48,433 nucleotides of DNA from Egibacteraceae bacterium (GTDB taxonomy: Bacteria; Actinomycetota; Nitriliruptoria; Euzebyales; Egibacteraceae): the NCBI GenBank assembly GCA_035540635.1, contig DATLGH010000037.1:1-48433 (forward strand). The letters are read 5' to 3'. Below the pieces are notes generated by a model. The model did no database searches, was not told the DNA's origin, and was given only the letters and a program-made list of their open reading frames with translations. Position 1 is the stretch's first letter. The number at the start of each line of letters is the position of its first letter. The position numbers and the translations under genes are program-made. This document shows positions 35,823 through 47,433 of the stretch, piece by piece.

Positions 35823-38474
35823 TCATCGAACCTCGAGCGATGCGTTGGTGTGATCCACGCCATCGTCGGCGGGACGCCACGTCGTCCACGTGCCGCCCGG
35901 GCTGCGGATGGACCAGGGCTCGTGCCCGTGCGAACGGCCGGCCACGGTGATCCACTTCCCGCCGATCAGTTCCTGGAGCACCTGGTTGCGCTGGATGATC
36001 GCATCGGTGCGCTCAAGGGGCGCCTGGATGATCGCGAGCAGGCGCAGCGGTTCGTGCATGCGACGCTCTCCAACGCCCACCGCCTGCGCGGGGAGGCCGA
36101 CCTGGAGGTCGCCCCCCTCGCCGAGGCCGACGCCGATGCCGCCCACCGGGTTGTGCAGCGTCTTGTCTCCCGCGCCGAACTGGTCGGGATCGACCGACGA
36201 GAAGTAGTACTGAGCGGAGATCCACTGGCCGACGACGAGCGGCGCGGTGAGGATCGTCTCCAGGGCGCTGCCGTCGCCATCGCCCTCCGCATCGTAGGAG
36301 TGCAGGAACACGCGACATGCCAGGTCGAGTCCGGCGGTGAGCGAGCGGGGTCCGACGACGAACGCAGCATTGCCGGCGAGCCCCCACTCAGGACGCACCT
36401 GCGCCCAGTCGTACCCGCGGACCCGGACCTTCCGGGGATCTCCCGGGAGCCGCCTGGCGCGCTCGCGTGCGAGCCGTTCACCGGCCACCGCGACGTCCCG
36501 CTCGAAGGCTGCGACCAGCCGTTCGTGGCTGTCCGGTACGGCCTCGCGGTCGAGAACGGTCACTTCGTCGGAGGCGGTGTCGTGCTGGGCGGCAACGAAG
36601 AGGGTGTCGTCGGGCACCGTGATGCCTCGCTCTTTGAGCCCGGCACGGACCCCAGGGTCGTTGAGGATGGCCACTGCCACTCGGGCGCTGGGCCCACCGG
36701 GGGCGCCGCCGCACGCGCCGCAGTCATAGGAGGATGCGTGCGGGTTGTTGACGTTGTGGCTGCCGTGCCCGCAGAACACGACGAGCCGGGCGAAGCGGGT
36801 CAAGCCCATGGTCCGGACGATGCTGTCGGCGAAGGAGACCCGCTCCCCGAGCGCCAAGCCGGAGCTGCCGTCGCGTTCCGCCTCGACAACCGGGCGTGTC
36901 TGCGGGGAGGCTAGTCGGCGCGTCATCAGCGTCAGGCGACGCGCCAAGCCTGGTGCCAGCGTCCTGGCCGCGGCCACGGGACCCATGAGGTAACCCGCCG
37001 CCTCGGCGAGCACGAACGGACCGTCCAGGCTCTCTTTGGGGGCGTGGAAGGTCTCCCGTGCTGCGCCGGCGGCTCGCCGGGTGGTGAGGTAGCCGAGGGC
37101 GCTGTCAGGGACGAGCGGCTGCTCGGCGACCTCGTGGTCAGCCGTCAGCAGCGGAGGGCAGCGCGGCTGGCTCACCGTCGACCCCAGCTGCCGCCAGCGC
37201 ACGGGAACGCCGAAGAACCCGGCGAACCCCATGGTCTCGTAGGGGCCGCATGTCTCCAGGTGCCGTTCCAGGCCCTCCGAGCGCACGTCGATGCAGAATG
37301 CCGCTTGCACGTCCGGCCGCTCGGTCGCCGGGCCGGGGTCCGGGCGGCTCAGCAGCCCCAGCAGACGATCGCGGAAGTTGCCCTCCTGCGCCTCGAGCCA
37401 CAGCGACTTCCGTATCGACGGCGGCACCTGCTGCAGGACGTCACGCACGGCGGAGGTGGCGGAGGGATCGTCGGAGGTGGTGCCGAGAGCGGCGAGCACC
37501 GCCGTCACCCGGTGCTCGAGGAGGTTCTCGACCATCTGGTTCTCGTGCTGCGGGGGCTGCCGGCCCGGGCCCAGCGCTGGGCCGCCCTGAGGGTCGACGC
37601 CGGTCAGCGACGGGCGGGGGAGCGCAGCTGCGCCATGGGCCGCCGTTGCCGTGGCGGCCACCTGCGCGGCGAGCAGGTCCACGAGGCGCAACGGGGGACG
37701 ATCGTGGTCGGGCGGAGCCCACTCGTCGTACCAGCGCGCGTACCCGGCCCAGCCCGGAAGCCGGCCGAGGTGCTCGCGAAGGGCGTCGACGCGATCGCCG
37801 TCGTCGACATCCAGCGCGTCGAGGGAGGCGGCGAGTGCCTCGACCGGATCGTCAGGTAGTTGGGCCAGCCACTGCATGCCGGTCGGGCCAGCGAGGCGCC
37901 GGAGCCGCCGGTCGTGTCGCGCGAGCTCTCGCCACGCACGGAAGAACCCGTGCTCGCGGCGGGGCATGGGCCATGGGACGCCGGTCTCGTCGACGAAGAC
38001 TGCACACCACGCGGCCACGAGCCAGCTGACCGCTCGGACGGTCTCTACATTCGTACGGCCGACCCGATCGCCGGCGGTGTCCCGGGGCTTGTCGTCCGGT
38101 CCCACGAGCAGGTCCAAAAGGACGATCTCCACCGCATCGACCGTTCGCTCCCCGATCTCGAGGTTGGCCTGCGGCGCGAGCTTCGGGGCGACTTCGATGA
38201 TGGCGTGCCGGAGATCGGCATCGGTGATGACCCCGCGCTCGTGGGCATCGCGGAACGCGGCGAGCGTCATGTGGGTGCGTGCCCGCAACCACCGGCGGGC
38301 GACGGCGGTGGCGTCGTCGAAGGGCAGGTGCTGCAGGCCGAGGAGGGGATTGACCGCCACGAAGCTGGTCAGCGGCCAGAGCGGAGCGATGATCTGCGCC
38401 GCTTTGGAGACATCGGCGAGGAGTTCGGTGTGGCGGGCAGATCGTCCGCGGCGGCCGTTGCTTCGGTTGCTCAT
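35823..38474 (-). CDS. dabA: DabA, zinc subunit of the DAB inorganic-carbon transporter (DUF2309)
   Basis: 883 aa from ATG at 38474, which overlaps the dabB stop as ATGA; the frame upstream is the shadow of dabB. The carbonic-anhydrase-like zinc site is recognisable: AFCIDVRSE (Cys and Asp) and FCGHGSHNVNNPHASSYDCG (His and Cys). The beginning has the family motif FVAVNPLLGLQHLPFDDA. With DabB it takes up inorganic carbon as bicarbonate in the cytoplasm, driven by a cation gradient. In the cbb/cso operon it would feed bicarbonate to the carboxysome. Confidence 0.95.
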   Translation of the reverse strand: MSNRSNGRRGRSARHTELLADVSKAAQIIAPLWPLTSFVAVNPLLGLQHLPFDDATAVARRWLRARTHMTLAAFRDAHERGVITDADLRHAIIEVAPKLAPQANLEIGERTVDAVEIVLLDLLVGPDDKPRDTAGDRVGRTNVETVRAVSWLVAAWCAVFVDETGVPWPMPRREHGFFRAWRELARHDRRLRRLAGPTGMQWLAQLPDDPVEALAASLDALDVDDGDRVDALREHLGRLPGWAGYARWYDEWAPPDHDRPPLRLVDLLAAQVAATATAAHGAAALPRPSLTGVDPQGGPALGPGRQPPQHENQMVENLLEHRVTAVLAALGTTSDDPSATSAVRDVLQQVPPSIRKSLWLEAQEGNFRDRLLGLLSRPDPGPATERPDVQAAFCIDVRSEGLERHLETCGPYETMGFAGFFGVPVRWRQLGSTVSQPRCPPLLTADHEVAEQPLVPDSALGYLTTRRAAGAARETFHAPKESLDGPFVLAEAAGYLMGPVAAARTLAPGLARRLTLMTRRLASPQTRPVVEAERDGSSGLALGERVSFADSIVRTMGLTRFARLVVFCGHGSHNVNNPHASSYDCGACGGAPGGPSARVAVAILNDPGVRAGLKERGITVPDDTLFVAAQHDTASDEVTVLDREAVPDSHERLVAAFERDVAVAGERLARERARRLPGDPRKVRVRGYDWAQVRPEWGLAGNAAFVVGPRSLTAGLDLACRVFLHSYDAEGDGDGSALETILTAPLVVGQWISAQYYFSSVDPDQFGAGDKTLHNPVGGIGVGLGEGGDLQVGLPAQAVGVGERRMHEPLRLLAIIQAPLERTDAIIQRNQVLQELIGGKWITVAGRSHGHEPWSIRSPGGTWTTWRPADDGVDHTNASLEVR

Positions 38475-40120
38475 GTGGATCGTGTCGATCGGGCCGGCTC
38501 CGGCTCCGTGCGCGGGTGAAACTGGCGGGATTCTGGCACGGGCGCTACCCCTGTCGAACTGCCTCGGGTCGTCAACGGGGCGGAGACGGGCGCCGAGGTG
38601 AGCACGAGTGCGTACATCCGGCTGCGCAGCGTGCGCATCCGCTCCCCTGGAGTGAGCCAGACGGCGGCGACCAGGAGCGCGATCGCCGCGAGCGTGGCAA
38701 CGAGGAGAGTGGCGCTGACCGGCTCGGGAACCTCGGCGGGCGCCGCGCCAGCGACGAAGGTCTCCACGGCGGTCAGCCCACCGACGTAGGCGAACACTCC
38801 GGCGGCGCCACCGAGTGCCGCGCTTGCGACTGCCGGGACGGGCCGGAACGGCGCCGCGTGCAGCCACCCACTGACGGCCCGGGCTGCCGTCGCCCACGCG
38901 AACACCGTCATGAGCACAAACGCCGCCGTCGACAGGTGCGGCTGGAAGATCAGGTGCGCGGCCACAAGTGCCGCGGCCGGCACGAGCAGCGCGACGCCCA
39001 GCCGAACGCTCCGGGCGACGCCATGTGGGACAGGCCGTTGCTCGTGGCGGAGATGGTCCGTTACCGCGCTGCCGGCCCCGAGGAACAGCGCTGCCTTGTA
39101 CATCCCGTGCCCGACGATGTGGAGCAACGCCGCGGAGAACGCTCCTATGGCCACCTGCACCGTCATGAACCCCATCTGCCCTGCCGTGGACCACGCCAGG
39201 TTCCCCTTCACGTCGCTGCGCACCAGCATCACGGTCGTCGCGTAACAGGCAGTGACGGCACCCGCTGCGTAGGCCATGTGCGTCGCCGCGGCCGACGACC
39301 CGAACACCGGAGCGAGTCGCACCAACAGCATGCCGGCGCCGTTGACCACGCCTGCGTGGAGCAGCGCTGACACCGGCGTGGGCGCTGCGATCGTGGACGG
39401 CAGCCACTGGTGCAGGGGTACGAGCGCGGACCGGGAAATGCCGGCAATGGTCAGGAGCACGGCGACCACCCACAACACGTTCCTACCGAGCACCGGGATC
39501 GACGCGTTCGCGAGCTCCTCGGCGGCCCGGGCCGGCCAGCGGAGGTCGAGCTCGCCGACGGAGACGACGGCGAGCAGAGTGGCCACCAAGAGCGCGGTGT
39601 CCCCCACCCAGAGCATGCGCAGGGTCCGCTGGGCCGAGCGCCGCGCCGGTGTCCAGGTGGCCCGGTGGGTGACCAGCCCAGCCAACGCGAGGCCGGCCAG
39701 GATCCAGGAGGCGGTCAGCAGGCTGAGGGTGGCGGCGAAGGCCACTGACGTCGTCGCCGCTGTCAGCAGCGAGGCCAGTGCGAAGAAGCGGCGCTCCCGC
39801 AGATCCATCTGCAGCTGGCGGCCGGCGAAGGACTGCACGACCCAGCCGACACCGGTGGTGAGCAAGCCCAACATTGCGGTGACGCGAGTTGCATGCAGGC
39901 CCACGAGCGCACCGCCATCGCCCCCCTCGACCACGGCTGCGATCGGTCCGTCCACAGCCACGACGACCATCACGACGACCGTCGCGGCGAACGCGGCAGA
40001 GGCCCCACGTACCGCCCATCGGGCGGACCGCTCTCCGACGGGGCGCGCGACGGCGATCGCCGCGGCGGCGATCGCGGGCAGCGCGGGGACGACGAGCACG
40101 AGCATCGCAGGCGGCGTCAT
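38471..40120 (-). CDS. dabB: DabB, membrane subunit of the DAB inorganic-carbon transporter
   Basis: 549 aa with many membrane helices of the NADH dehydrogenase ND5/MrpA type: SALVPLHQWLPSTIAAPTPV, SALLHAGVVNGAGMLLVRL and GHGMYKAALFLGAGS are the antiporter-like motifs with conserved Lys/His. DabB is thought to provide the cation channel that energises DabA. The start is ATG at 40120 in frame with no competing upstream start. The C-terminus (about 40 residues after the last helix) is Pro/Ser/Arg-rich and not part of the conserved core. Confidence 0.93.
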   Translation of the reverse strand: MTPPAMLVLVVPALPAIAAAAIAVARPVGERSARWAVRGASAAFAATVVVMVVVAVDGPIAAVVEGGDGGALVGLHATRVTAMLGLLTTGVGWVVQSFAGRQLQMDLRERRFFALASLLTAATTSVAFAATLSLLTASWILAGLALAGLVTHRATWTPARRSAQRTLRMLWVGDTALLVATLLAVVSVGELDLRWPARAAEELANASIPVLGRNVLWVVAVLLTIAGISRSALVPLHQWLPSTIAAPTPVSALLHAGVVNGAGMLLVRLAPVFGSSAAATHMAYAAGAVTACYATTVMLVRSDVKGNLAWSTAGQMGFMTVQVAIGAFSAALLHIVGHGMYKAALFLGAGSAVTDHLRHEQRPVPHGVARSVRLGVALLVPAAALVAAHLIFQPHLSTAAFVLMTVFAWATAARAVSGWLHAAPFRPVPAVASAALGGAAGVFAYVGGLTAVETFVAGAAPAEVPEPVSATLLVATLAAIALLVAAVWLTPGERMRTLRSRMYALVLTSAPVSAPLTTRGSSTGVAPVPESRQFHPRTEPEPARSTRST

Positions 40121-42838: not shown

Positions 42839-44421
42839 CGCCGTGCCTCCTTCGTTCGCGCTCCGGGTGGGCACGAGCCCGGCGGGGCGTCGCCCTCGGC
42901 CTCGACCACCTCCAGGCGCGACCTGTCTCGCGTTCGCACGACCCCTTGGGTGACGAGGCCAGCGGGGCCGGCCGCACCCGCATACCGGGCCTCGATCGCC
43001 GCGGCAAGGCGGCGAGCACGTGCGTGCGCCCTGGCGCTGGCGCCCGGGATGCGCTCGTCGTAGGCGACGTGCACGAGCACCGGCACCCCAACCCCGTGCG
43101 GCGCGTTCATACTCGCGAGCACCCGGATGCCGATGTCGAGGTCGGCGGCGCCTTCCTCGAGGGTGCTCATCTGCGCCTGGAAAGTGAGGTTGCGCAGCTG
43201 AACGTCGTCCATCGCGTCGCCGGCAACGATCAGCTTCTCGCCGTGGCCGGAATCCGCGTACCTTCCGCCGCTCCAGCCGAGCACCGCGTCGACCTCTCCG
43301 ATGTTGTTCTTCAGCAGGTAGCCGCACAGCCAGCGCATGCCCTCGGTCGCGGCGTCGGCCGCGTCCACGCCGGCGCAGTCGGCGACCGCGTGGCGGATGA
43401 ACTCCTTGGCGGCCTCGCGCTCGAGGCTCGCCGTCTGCTCGTAGAGCGTGGCGCTGGAGACGAAGCGGTCCACGTCGGTCCGACCGGCGGCATCGGGAAC
43501 GTGGACGCGGATGGCGTCGGTGTCCGTGTCCACCCCGACGAGCAGCGTGGCCACGCTCGCCGCGCAGCACTGGGTGGACTCGACCGCACCCTCGAGCTCC
43601 TGGAGCCGCGCCAACAGTGCGGTCGCGGCGCGCTCGTCGTCACTGTCGAACGCGGCACAGCCCTCGTGGCGTGGGTCGACGCTGCTGAAGTGGTAGAGCC
43701 CGATCTTCAGGTAGCGCGTGGGCTCGCTGGCGTCGTTCGGCCAGCCCTCGCGCCAGCGTCGCAGCTCCACCGCTTCCCAGCGGTGCAGCGCGTCCTCGAC
43801 GTCGAACATCGCGCCGACATACGCGTCCCGCCACACGACGACCGCGGGCGGCACCCGCAGGATGAAATCCACCGCCCCGGCGAGGCGCCCGTCAGCGCAG
43901 GCGGTGATGTCGACCGCGTGGAAGCCGAAACGCCGGATCAACACCTCGGCGCTCTCGCCCTCGTCGAGCAGCCGTGCGAGGTTCCGGTCGAACTCGCGCT
44001 CGACCAGGTTGCGGAAGGTCCCGAGCACGCAACGGGCGTGGATGCGACCGAGGTCCAGCGGTGTGCTCCAGGACGACTCGAGCTCAGCCGCCGGGATGTC
44101 GACCCTGAGCGAGTCGGCCAGCTCGCGATGCGCCTGTTCGGGGAAGCCGTCGTCAAACTGGCGCGGTGCCAGCCGGCGAAGGACGGGCTCGATGAGCGCG
44201 AACGCGGCCGCGATCTCCTCGGCCCGCTGCTTCAGGGCGGCGGTGAGCGCCGGCTCGGCCAGCGGATGCTCACCCGCTGGCAGGGTGAGCCCGTACGCCC
44301 CGTTCCGGACTGGCTGGCCCGGCGACGACGTCACCGTCGCCACCGCGCTCGAGCGTGGCCAGGCCGCAGCCTGGTCCCAGGGAGCACGGCAGCGCCCGTC
44401 GGGCTGGAGCAGGGACTTCAT
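42835..44421 (-). CDS. csoSCA: Carboxysomal carbonic anhydrase CsoSCA
   Basis: 528 aa from ATG overlapping the csoS2 stop (ATGA). It has the epsilon/beta-type zinc site: Cys and the Asp-Arg dyad in DITACADGRLAGAVDF, then His and Cys in LYHFSSVDPRHEGCAAF. It converts bicarbonate to CO2 inside the shell. The N-terminal region (AEPALTAALKQRAEEIAAAF) and the duplicated C-terminal domain, lacking a second zinc site, are as in the family. Length is close to the typical 510-530 residues. Confidence 0.95.
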   Translation of the reverse strand: MKSLLQPDGRCRAPWDQAAAWPRSSAVATVTSSPGQPVRNGAYGLTLPAGEHPLAEPALTAALKQRAEEIAAAFALIEPVLRRLAPRQFDDGFPEQAHRELADSLRVDIPAAELESSWSTPLDLGRIHARCVLGTFRNLVEREFDRNLARLLDEGESAEVLIRRFGFHAVDITACADGRLAGAVDFILRVPPAVVVWRDAYVGAMFDVEDALHRWEAVELRRWREGWPNDASEPTRYLKIGLYHFSSVDPRHEGCAAFDSDDERAATALLARLQELEGAVESTQCCAASVATLLVGVDTDTDAIRVHVPDAAGRTDVDRFVSSATLYEQTASLEREAAKEFIRHAVADCAGVDAADAATEGMRWLCGYLLKNNIGEVDAVLGWSGGRYADSGHGEKLIVAGDAMDDVQLRNLTFQAQMSTLEEGAADLDIGIRVLASMNAPHGVGVPVLVHVAYDERIPGASARAHARARRLAAAIEARYAGAAGPAGLVTQGVVRTRDRSRLEVVEAEGDAPPGSCPPGARTKEARR

Positions 44422-46751
44422 CCTTGGCCACCCCCGGAGACGGTGACCATTGCCGCCGCCTTCGGGTTCCAGCCGGAGCGGCCGGTGACCTTCTGGTCCT
44501 CGGGCGGTGCTCCGGGCGTGGCCAGGTGCCGGAACTTGAGCGCGCCCGCCCAGCCGTTGGGCTCGCCGCCGCCCTCGCTGGGGTTGCGCCCGGCTGCGAT
44601 GTAGCCCTCGGTCCCGGTGACCCGGTCGTGGGCCGTCCAGGCGGCGGGGGAACCGGTGATCGGACGACCGTCGGTGCGCCCCTCGCCCGTGACCGCCGGT
44701 GGCTTGCCGTTACGGTTCAGCCGGGGCCGGAACAGGAACTCGTTGTTGCCGGTCACCTTGCCTTCGCCGACGGCGAAGGACCCGGTGATGGAGCCAGGCA
44801 CGGTGGAAGCGGGCGGCGCCGCGTTGTCGGTCTCGGCGTCGTCGCTCTCCCTGCCTGCCAGGCGCCGCGCCAGGGCCCCCGGGAAGGGCTGCCAGCGGGC
44901 CCAGTCGTCGGCCGCCGGCTCCGCGGCCCGCAGATCGCCGTAGTAGGACGTGCCGGTGACAGTGTGCCGCTGGCCGCGCTCGGTGCCGGTGACCGCCTCG
45001 GCGGGCACGGGAAGGTCGCCGGTCACGGCCACACCTTCCGGCCTGGACGCGAGACGCTGGGCCGCGGACTCGCCCTCGTCGGGCTCGCACCAGCCGAAGA
45101 TGGTGGATGGCCCCTGGTAAGGCGTGCCGGTCAGCGGGCGGCAGGCACCCGGCTCGTCGCCGGTGACGTTGGGGCGGTGCTCCACGCTGGGACCGGTGAC
45201 GCGCTGGCCCCCCCAAGTCTGCGCCACCGTCACCTTGCCGGCGGTCACCGGGTCCAGACGCGCCCGGTTGAGGTGCGCGGCCGGCGCGGTACCGCCACCG
45301 GTGCCGCCGCACTCGCTGGAGTACGAGGAAAGGTCCTGGTACTGGTCGCCGGTGATCGGGCGGCAGACGCCGGCCTCGTTCCCGGTGACGCGCGCGCTGC
45401 GGCCGACGGCCGTGCCGGTGACGGCCAGCCCGCCGTCGGTGGTCGCCAGCCCGGGCCCGTCCCCGTGCGAGGCGGCTATTCCAGGCTGGATGACCGCGGT
45501 CGCTCCGTGCGGGTCGGCCCGGCGCGGGAACTGCGTGGAACGGTAGGCGCCGTCGCTGCGTGGGGTCAGGTCGTCGTCCAACTTCTGTTCGGCTTCGCCG
45601 GTGATGCGGAGGTGCTCGCCGGCCTCGTCACCGGTGATGGGCACCTTGCCGCGAACCGTGGTGCCGGAGACGACGAGGCCCTGGGGCGTGCGTACCAGCC
45701 CGACCTTCGGCCCAGCGCCCAACGCGGGGGCCGACCCGTCGGCCGCGACGTACTGCGTGCCCGACACCGGGAGCGCGGCGCCGGGCTCGTCGCCCGTGAC
45801 CCGCACGCCCGGACCGATCCGCAGCCCGGTCACGCCCTGGCCGCCGTGGGTGGGCGACACGATCACCTTGGGCGGGTACCGGACCCCGCCCTCCCGCTGG
45901 GGCCTGCTGATCCCTGCGCTGCCGAGGCGGCTCGCCTCGGCGCGCCGAGCCCGGGCCTGCTCACGACCCGAGCCAACGCCGTCCACCTGCGGCTTCTCCG
46001 CGGCGGGCGGCGCGCCGGCACGGGGTGCAGCCGCCACCCCGTCACCGCCGCCGTCCAGCGCCTGCTTGCCCTGGGACAGCTGACGGCGGCGCTGCATGGA
46101 AAGCGCGCGGCCGAGGTGGGCGTCGGCCACGCCGGCGGTCGCGACCGCCGGCCCCCCCGGAGCCCCGTGCGCGCCGCTCGGAGCGCCCTGACCGCCGGCG
46201 GCGGCGGGCGGCGCGCCGGCGCCCGCGCCGGCCTCGCCGTCCAGCGCCTGCTTGCCCTGAGACAGCTGACGGCGGCGTTGCATGGAGAGGACGCGGCCGA
46301 GGTGGGCGTCGCCCACGCCGGCGGTCGCGACCGCCGGCCCCCCCGGAGCCCCTTGCGTGCCGTTCGACGCGCCTTGACCGTCGGCGGCGGCGGGCGACGC
46401 GCCGTCGCCGTCCAGCGCCCGCTTGCCCTGGGACATCTGGCGGCGGCGTTGCATGGAGAGGGCGCGGCCGAGGTGGACGTCGCCCACGCCGTCGGTCGCG
46501 ACCGCCGTCCCCCTCGGAGCCCCTTGCGTGCCGTTCGACGCGCCTTGACCGGTGGCAGCGGCGGGCGGAGCCCCCGCGCCGTTGACCTGCAGGTTCTCCG
46601 CGGCGGGAGGCGCGCCGTTGCCGCTCAGCGCCTGCTTGCCCTGGGACAGCTGGCGGCGGCGCGACATCGCCGCGGTGCGGCCGTCACGGGCAGCATGTTG
46701 CAGCTCGGCCAGCTCACCGCTGTCGTCGGCTTGGACCGCGTACATTCCCAT
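44418..46751 (-). CDS. csoS2: Carboxysome scaffold protein CsoS2
   Basis: 777 aa with SD GGAGGTG before the ATG at 46751. N-terminal region (about residues 20-235) has four RuBisCO-binding repeats of the form SRRRQLSQGKQAL or QRRRQLSQGKQAL. The middle region (about 305-600) has five VTG/ITG-rich repeats such as VTGNEAGVCRPITGDQYQ; two carry Cys, and this is fewer than the six or seven usual in proteobacteria. The C-terminus (about 640-777) has ITGSFAVGEGKVTGNNEF and ends KVTGRSGWNPKAAAMVTV, the shell-binding part. CsoS2 condenses RuBisCO and joins it to the shell. Confidence 0.95.
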   Translation of the reverse strand: MGMYAVQADDSGELAELQHAARDGRTAAMSRRRQLSQGKQALSGNGAPPAAENLQVNGAGAPPAAATGQGASNGTQGAPRGTAVATDGVGDVHLGRALSMQRRRQMSQGKRALDGDGASPAAADGQGASNGTQGAPGGPAVATAGVGDAHLGRVLSMQRRRQLSQGKQALDGEAGAGAGAPPAAAGGQGAPSGAHGAPGGPAVATAGVADAHLGRALSMQRRRQLSQGKQALDGGGDGVAAAPRAGAPPAAEKPQVDGVGSGREQARARRAEASRLGSAGISRPQREGGVRYPPKVIVSPTHGGQGVTGLRIGPGVRVTGDEPGAALPVSGTQYVAADGSAPALGAGPKVGLVRTPQGLVVSGTTVRGKVPITGDEAGEHLRITGEAEQKLDDDLTPRSDGAYRSTQFPRRADPHGATAVIQPGIAASHGDGPGLATTDGGLAVTGTAVGRSARVTGNEAGVCRPITGDQYQDLSSYSSECGGTGGGTAPAAHLNRARLDPVTAGKVTVAQTWGGQRVTGPSVEHRPNVTGDEPGACRPLTGTPYQGPSTIFGWCEPDEGESAAQRLASRPEGVAVTGDLPVPAEAVTGTERGQRHTVTGTSYYGDLRAAEPAADDWARWQPFPGALARRLAGRESDDAETDNAAPPASTVPGSITGSFAVGEGKVTGNNEFLFRPRLNRNGKPPAVTGEGRTDGRPITGSPAAWTAHDRVTGTEGYIAAGRNPSEGGGEPNGWAGALKFRHLATPGAPPEDQKVTGRSGWNPKAAAMVTVSGGGQG
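46053..46540 (-). repeat. Three near-identical long repeats in the csoS2 N-region
   Basis: DNA units beginning near 46053, 46237 and 46409, each about 170-185 bp, encode GQGASNGTQGAPGGPAVATA-like linkers plus DAHLGRALSMQRRRQLSQGK. Two of them differ by only a few bases over most of their length, implying recent expansion or gene conversion. A fourth, more diverged copy of the binding motif lies nearer the 5' end. Confidence 0.85.
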
Positions 46752-46753
46752 GC

Positions 46754-47032
46754 TCAGCCACCTCCGCCGCGGTGGACGATGAGAGCCGGCGCGACGGCGC
46801 CGGCTGCAGCGGCCGTCCGGTCACCGCCGCCGTTCAGCGCCTGCTTGGCGGGAGCACGGAGCTCGGCCTCCCGGAACCCGATGCGCACCCGCTCGTGCGC
46901 GGGCGCCAAAGCCGGCCGGCCGGCGGCGAGCGCTCGGCGCCGCGACATCGCCGCAGCGCGGCCCTGACGGGCAGCACCTCGGAGCGCGGCGGCGTAACCG
47001 CTGTCGGCGGTCTGGACCACGCGCATTCGCAT
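46754..47032 (-). CDS. Stand-alone mini-CsoS2 (CsoS2 N-terminal-like small protein)
   Basis: 92 aa from ATG at 47032, 2 nt after the cbbS stop, with GGAG about 10 nt upstream. Residues 3-42 align with the start of CsoS2: RVVQTADSGYAAALRGAARQ then GRAAAMSRRRALAAGRPAL, against YAVQADDSGELAELQHAARD then GRTAAMSRRRQLSQGKQAL. A second half-motif (PAKQALNGGGDR) follows. It contains no middle or C-terminal scaffold repeats and stops 2 nt before the csoS2 ATG, which has its own SD, so it is a separate gene. It likely carries one RuBisCO-binding motif. Confidence 0.8.
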   Translation of the reverse strand: MRMRVVQTADSGYAAALRGAARQGRAAAMSRRRALAAGRPALAPAHERVRIGFREAELRAPAKQALNGGGDRTAAAAGAVAPALIVHRGGGG

Positions 47033-47034
47033 TC

Positions 47035-47433
47035 TCAGCGGGCTCCATTGGAGCGGGCTCCATTGGAGCGGGCTCCATTGGACGCCCACTGCCCCAGGCC
47101 GGCATCAGCCCGGTGGACGATGAAGGCCGTGCCCTGACTCTGCATGTAGTTGTCGTAGCCGAGGAGGCGCACGTGGTGACCGGGATTGGCGCGGTGGCAC
47201 TCGTCGAGCTCGGCCAGGACCTTGTCGACCGACCGCTCACCGAAGAGCGGGAGCTTCCACAGGTACCAGAAGTTCGAGAAGGACTTCTCGGGCTCCGTGT
47301 GTTCGATGGCCGGTATCCAGCCGGACTCGATGATGTACGCGATCTGGTAGCGGAGCCGCTCGGGCGTCATCGGTGGCAGGTAGGAGAAGGTCTCCACATG
47401 GCGCGGGGTGGGCGGGTAGGGCTCAACGTGCAT
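47035..47433 (-). CDS. cbbS: RuBisCO small subunit, with repeat-extended C-terminus
   Basis: 132 aa, ATG with SD AAGGAGAG. The family pattern is clear: [60 protein letters not shown] and [14 protein letters not shown]. The core ends near residue 111; an added tail follows with three identical SNGAR repeats, encoded by perfect 15-bp DNA repeats. Form I small subunits usually stop near 110-118 residues. The tail may be free on the outside of the holoenzyme. Confidence 0.95.
47038..47082 (-). repeat. Three perfect 15-bp repeats at the cbbS 3' end
   Basis: GCGGGCTCCATTGGA is repeated three times without mismatch (47038-47052, 47053-47067, 47068-47082), encoding [15 protein letters not shown] in cbbS. 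The last copy also supplies the GGAG that would act as SD for the mini-CsoS2 gene. Confidence 0.97.

Follow-up and report, generated by a model that had tools for sequence, protein, structure and literature searches.

The short CcmM isoform of beta-carboxysomes (M35), which arises from an internal translation start and carries several SSUL domains, is a short scaffold form that condenses RuBisCO. In alpha-carboxysomes, the N-terminal repeats of CsoS2 are reported in PMC11365436 to bind RuBisCO multivalently and with low affinity. PMC10614612 attributes this binding to a RxxxxxRRxxxxxxGK motif and to CbbL Y72 and CbbS Y96, at a site common to CsoSCA; it also describes the CsoS2 motif in a few CsoSCA proteins of Prochlorococcus and considers RuBisCO sites to be in surplus. 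CsoS2A, a short isoform of Halothiobacillus neapolitanus, is made by programmed frameshifting according to PMC12918739. The valency of CsoS2 is thought to set RuBisCO condensation and loading into alpha-carboxysomes. A separate gene of the kind reported below is not described in the literature searched.

The window, i.e., the whole 48,433-nucleotide stretch of DNA that was analysed, has such a gene (the mini gene) between cbbS and csoS2. The features of this region, in window coordinates, are:

47035 to 47433, minus strand: cbbS, the apparent parent of the mini gene tail; its C-terminus has three copies of a 15-bp tandem repeat.
46754 to 47032, minus strand: the mini gene, 92 aa, consisting of a CsoS2 N-terminal start, one RuBisCO-binding motif and a CbbS-derived tail.
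46916 to 46960, minus strand: motif 1, RAAAMSRRRALAAGR, residues 25-39, fitting the CsoS2 motif RxxxxxRRxxxxx(x)G[KR] (definition from PMC10614612).
46823 to 46849, minus strand: remnant of CsoS2 repeat 2, AKQALNGGG, residues ~62-70; the whole repeat is kept in the orthologues of loci L019 and L029.
46757 to 46792, minus strand: tail, APALIVHRGGGG, copied from the cbbS 3' end.
46752 to 46767, minus strand: junction, GCGGAGGTGGCTGAGC, preceding the csoS2 ATG, where the final mini gene codons contain the csoS2 ribosome-binding site, in a stop-2 nt-start arrangement of the coupling type.
44418 to 46751, minus strand: csoS2, 777 aa, with four N-terminal RuBisCO-binding repeats; the apparent parent of the N-terminal part of the mini gene.

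The open reading frame runs from an ATG at 47032 to a TGA at 46756-46754, exactly as a sequence-only reading of the window had given it, although the strand (minus) was unnamed there. Both the 2 nt between the cbbS stop (47037-47035) and the mini gene start and the separate stop ahead of an SD-led csoS2, noted in that reading, are seen in the sequence. Another 2 nt separate the mini gene end from the csoS2 ATG (46751), and a GGAG-type ribosome-binding site precedes both starts.

The first ~40 residues copy the CsoS2 start in diverged form, as had been claimed, with 50% tblastn identity over 56 aa (E 2.8e-8), far beyond chance. The single RuBisCO-binding-like motif previously assigned to the window copy is also present; a motif of this type occurred in 1.25% of shuffled mini peptides. 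The final ~12 residues and their DNA (FIVHR...) are copied from the C-terminal end of CbbS, with 24-26 of 36 nt identical to the cbbS end in each of four carriers (see below), against 21-22 for the best chance match in 4 kb downstream. The anatomy given by the sequence-only reading was right for the CsoS2-like start and missed the CbbS-derived tail and the repeat 2 remnant. No RuBisCO_small domain (PF00101) was matched, the CbbS-derived part being limited to the tail residues. The absence of shell-binding repeats stood up to profile searches: the mini peptide matched no Pfam domain even at E 1, the CsoS2 middle-region VTG/Y/C repeats (PF12288) included, and no NCBIfam domain, and its end is the CbbS-like tail in place of the C-terminal repeats and C-terminal peptide. 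Pfam coverage of CsoS2 consists of CsoS2_M (PF12288) only.

The mini peptide resembles the CsoS2 N-terminal domain in its start, its helical RxxxxxRRxxxxx(x)G[KR] motif and its operon place beside cbbS, but it is encoded separately, lacks the middle and C-terminal shell-binding repeats, has 0-2 motifs instead of about four and ends in a CbbS-derived tail. Like CsoS2A, it is a second CsoS2-type product with a RuBisCO-binding end and less shell binding, whereas CsoS2A comes from the same gene as CsoS2 and retains, besides the N repeats, most of the middle region. It shares with the CsoSCA N-terminal peptide of alpha-carboxysomes the character of a short disordered segment for the same RuBisCO site (predicted for the mini peptide); the CsoSCA peptide, however, belongs to an enzyme, which it recruits as cargo. 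M35 is alike as a short scaffold form, but the protein is unrelated.

A CsoSCA profile scan of genome contigs yielded 80 cso loci, among which three close loci carry a mini gene in the same slot, the conservation on which the earlier proposal had turned:

L019, 4938 to 5357: mini gene of 139 aa with two motifs; tail PPVLIVHRSGAR.
L029, 5180 to 5485: mini gene of 101 aa with two motifs; tail APAFVVHRGGAG.
L020, 5543 to 5695: mini gene of 50 aa with no motif; tail APAFVVSRGGAG.

N-terminal RuBisCO-binding repeats of the CsoS2 kind thus number one in the window, two in L019, two in L029 and none in L020, and the peptide is not consistently "monovalent", as had been supposed. Three carriers share an identical arginine core, RxxxxxRRRxLxxGR; in L020, motif 1 is lost and motif 2 degraded, with the frame, start and stop of the ORF retained. 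The CsoSCA tree joins the four carriers in one clade (100/99), within which the window and L019 group together (98/93), and L021 branches next (100/98). In this sister locus csoS2 lies directly behind cbbS with no mini gene, and nothing like the mini gene was found in ~60 further cso loci, in G520 or in the Acidimicrobium-type locus L017, in agreement with the earlier remark that it is not standard in cso operons. The cbbS-csoS2 gaps of non-carrier loci are mostly <110 nt, and the longer ones contain no CsoS2-like ORF. A peptide search of 61 relatives and an operon search in the window's family and class returned no further copy.

A frameshifted csoS2, already discounted in the sequence-only reading, is rejected by the three independent orthologues and the gene's own start and stop. 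An assembly or sequencing artefact, or a single broken csoS2 frame, might be suspected in a multi-contig draft genome; its probability is practically negligible, since three independent assemblies have the same gene, diverged in sequence, with its own start and stop and a full csoS2 behind it.

The succession of CsoS2 start, repeats 1 and 2, CbbS end and full csoS2 is what would be expected if a segment running from the cbbS 3' end through the csoS2 start and repeats 1-2 had been duplicated in tandem, and all four carriers have both the CsoS2-homologous start and the CbbS-homologous tail. We consider it very probable that the mini gene arose when the cbbS-3'/csoS2-5' junction was partially duplicated in tandem in a common ancestor of the four cso operons. 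The original csoS2 5' end would then have become a short gene that terminates in the second copy of the cbbS end and is followed by a complete csoS2. Motif 1 of the mini gene reads RRRALAAGR or RRRALSAGR, like repeat 1 of the L021 CsoS2 (RRRALSAGRTAL) and near proteobacterial first repeats, and the linker of the window copy, APAHERVRIGFREAEL, matches proteobacterial PPASERVRSGFREAAM (60% over 35 aa including the motif). Repeat 1 of the neighbouring full csoS2 is now RRRQLSQGKQAL, resembling its own other repeats, and has probably been homogenised. Because the mini gene motif, unlike that repeat, is of the L021 and proteobacterial type, the short gene appears to keep the old CsoS2 start. AAGRPAL, previously taken for a weakened motif, is instead the ancestral type of CsoS2 repeat 1, the outgroup L021 having SAGRTAL. 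A scaffold built of short repeats could in this way shed new genes through junction duplication. The separate gene for a split-off CsoS2 N-terminus is real, of simple origin and kept in a small transferred clade.

The cbbS end itself (47037-47082) comprises 3.1 perfect copies of the 15-bp unit, by which CbbS is extended C-terminally, as (SNGAR)x3, past the RuBisCO_small domain. The CbbS end is also extended in L029, and L019 and L020 have no extension. The junction between cbbS and csoS2 seems to be a hot spot of duplication.

The mini ORF is open and abuts csoS2 in 4/4 carriers, as is rarely expected from neutral drift, and every length change is a multiple of three. In neutral simulations (star tree with assumed rates, indicative only), the probability of all four remaining open was <=0.02 without indels, and all four were open in 0/150 runs with indels. 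The dN/dS of the mini gene was 0.48 for L019-L029 (pN/pS interval below 1), 0.64 for the window and L029, 0.86 for the window and L019 (indistinguishable from neutral) and 1.4-1.8 in pairs with L020. For csoS2, the corresponding value over the first 45 codons was 0.4-1.2; since the CsoS2 N-terminus is also weakly constrained, such tests on the mini gene are low in power. By segment, motif 1 shows purifying selection in some carrier pairs, with pN/pS 0.32 for L019-L029 (p 0.004) and 0.40 for the window and L029 (p 0.06), p being per segment and uncorrected for the segments tested; the leader and tail gave no purifying signal. That the gene is a decaying duplication relic, still open by chance, would fit the high values in L020 pairs, the variable length, the motif loss and the scarcity of stops in GC-rich DNA. 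The simulations, which rarely left all four frames open even without indels, the purifying signal in L019-L029 and the retention of the gene through a between-class transfer make this quite improbable.

The product would be a largely disordered peptide in which one or two RuBisCO-binding motifs form helices. AlphaFold2 predicted a helix at residues 8-36 with modest confidence and a second at 45-59 with low confidence, followed by disorder; a PDB sequence search with the mini peptide returned no meaningful match. By alignment, the window and L019 have the CbbS partner tyrosine, where L029 and L020 have F, and CbbL Y72 is present in L019, L020 and L029, the window contig stopping before that part of cbbL. 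In the csoS2 motifs of the window, L019, L029, L020, L021 and proteobacterial relatives, five residues separate RR from GK, compared with six in the published motif.

From its motif, the peptide would be predicted to bind the same RuBisCO site as CsoS2 and CsoSCA without shell linkage, and the mini gene may tune RuBisCO packing. We give nearly even credence to a role in which the peptide would occupy this site at low valency and would thereby act as an accessory modulator of RuBisCO condensation. If RuBisCO sites are indeed in surplus, a capping peptide would have to be abundant. A stand-alone low-valency peptide, split off the CsoS2 start, that would regulate condensation in alpha-carboxysomes as a competitor of CsoS2 and CsoSCA for one RuBisCO site is unlikely. 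The two complete motifs of L019 and L029 could instead make the peptide a structural linker that cross-links RuBisCO in the lumen, as PMC9314367 proposes for the truncated isoform CsoS2A of Halothiobacillus. With one complete motif in the window copy and none in L020, such a linker is very unlikely.

The stop-2 nt-ATG spacing between mini gene and csoS2 recurs in three carriers and is even tighter in L019. The short gene is likely to be translated with the rest of the operon, in coupling to csoS2. The mini gene could then be a translational-coupling leader, with ribosomes ending on the csoS2 ribosome-binding site within the last mini gene codons and starting csoS2, and the peptide itself idle. 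Loss of both motifs in L020 with the ORF kept counts against a strictly needed binding role and is best explained by coupling. On the other hand, constraint in the other three carriers is strongest on motif 1, and no new leader was needed, csoS2 already lying directly behind cbbS before the duplication (L021); an idle leader, the chief alternative, is possible but on balance doubtful. The complete reading, in which the duplication gave rise to a peptide that is translated in coupling with csoS2, binds RuBisCO at low valency and plays an accessory role, is tentative and falls somewhat short of even credence. The gene would part the RuBisCO-binding from the shell-binding end of CsoS2 naturally, and its 2, 1 and 0 motifs in close relatives would form a ready-made valency series, making it a candidate part for carboxysome engineering.

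Host kinship was assessed from RecA and Mrp, rpoB being missing from the window's multi-contig draft genome. The window host belongs to a different class from the L019 and L020 hosts, which represent different families within the class of G134. The RecA extein of the window's genome is 84-86% identical to those of same-family/same-order genomes and 75-76% to those of the L019 and L020 genomes, and CsoSCA of the window is 81-85% identical to that of the other carriers. The cso operon was found in none of the other genomes among 21 of the window's family. With one CsoSCA clade spread over hosts of different families and two classes, the operon appears to have moved together with the short gene. 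A mis-binned contig was considered and rejected: the Mrp ATPase encoded on this contig shares 84% identity with that of a same-genus genome and 50-51% with those of the three other carriers, so the contig is placed correctly and the operon alone was transferred.

A quite different cso operon, with a CsoSCA 37% identical, occurs at L018 (G051), in the same class as the window, which suggests repeated acquisition of carboxysomes by this class. Window positions 35823-40120, a few kb away from the cso genes and on their strand, encode DabA and a Proton_antipo_M (DabB-like) protein, a probable inorganic carbon transporter adjoining the carboxysome operon. RecA of the window's genome has intein-like inserts, one at a site common to L125 (G419, another class) and a second at a site common to L124 (G418) (loci L126, L127, L125, L124); a split recA is also present in a genome of the window's genus.
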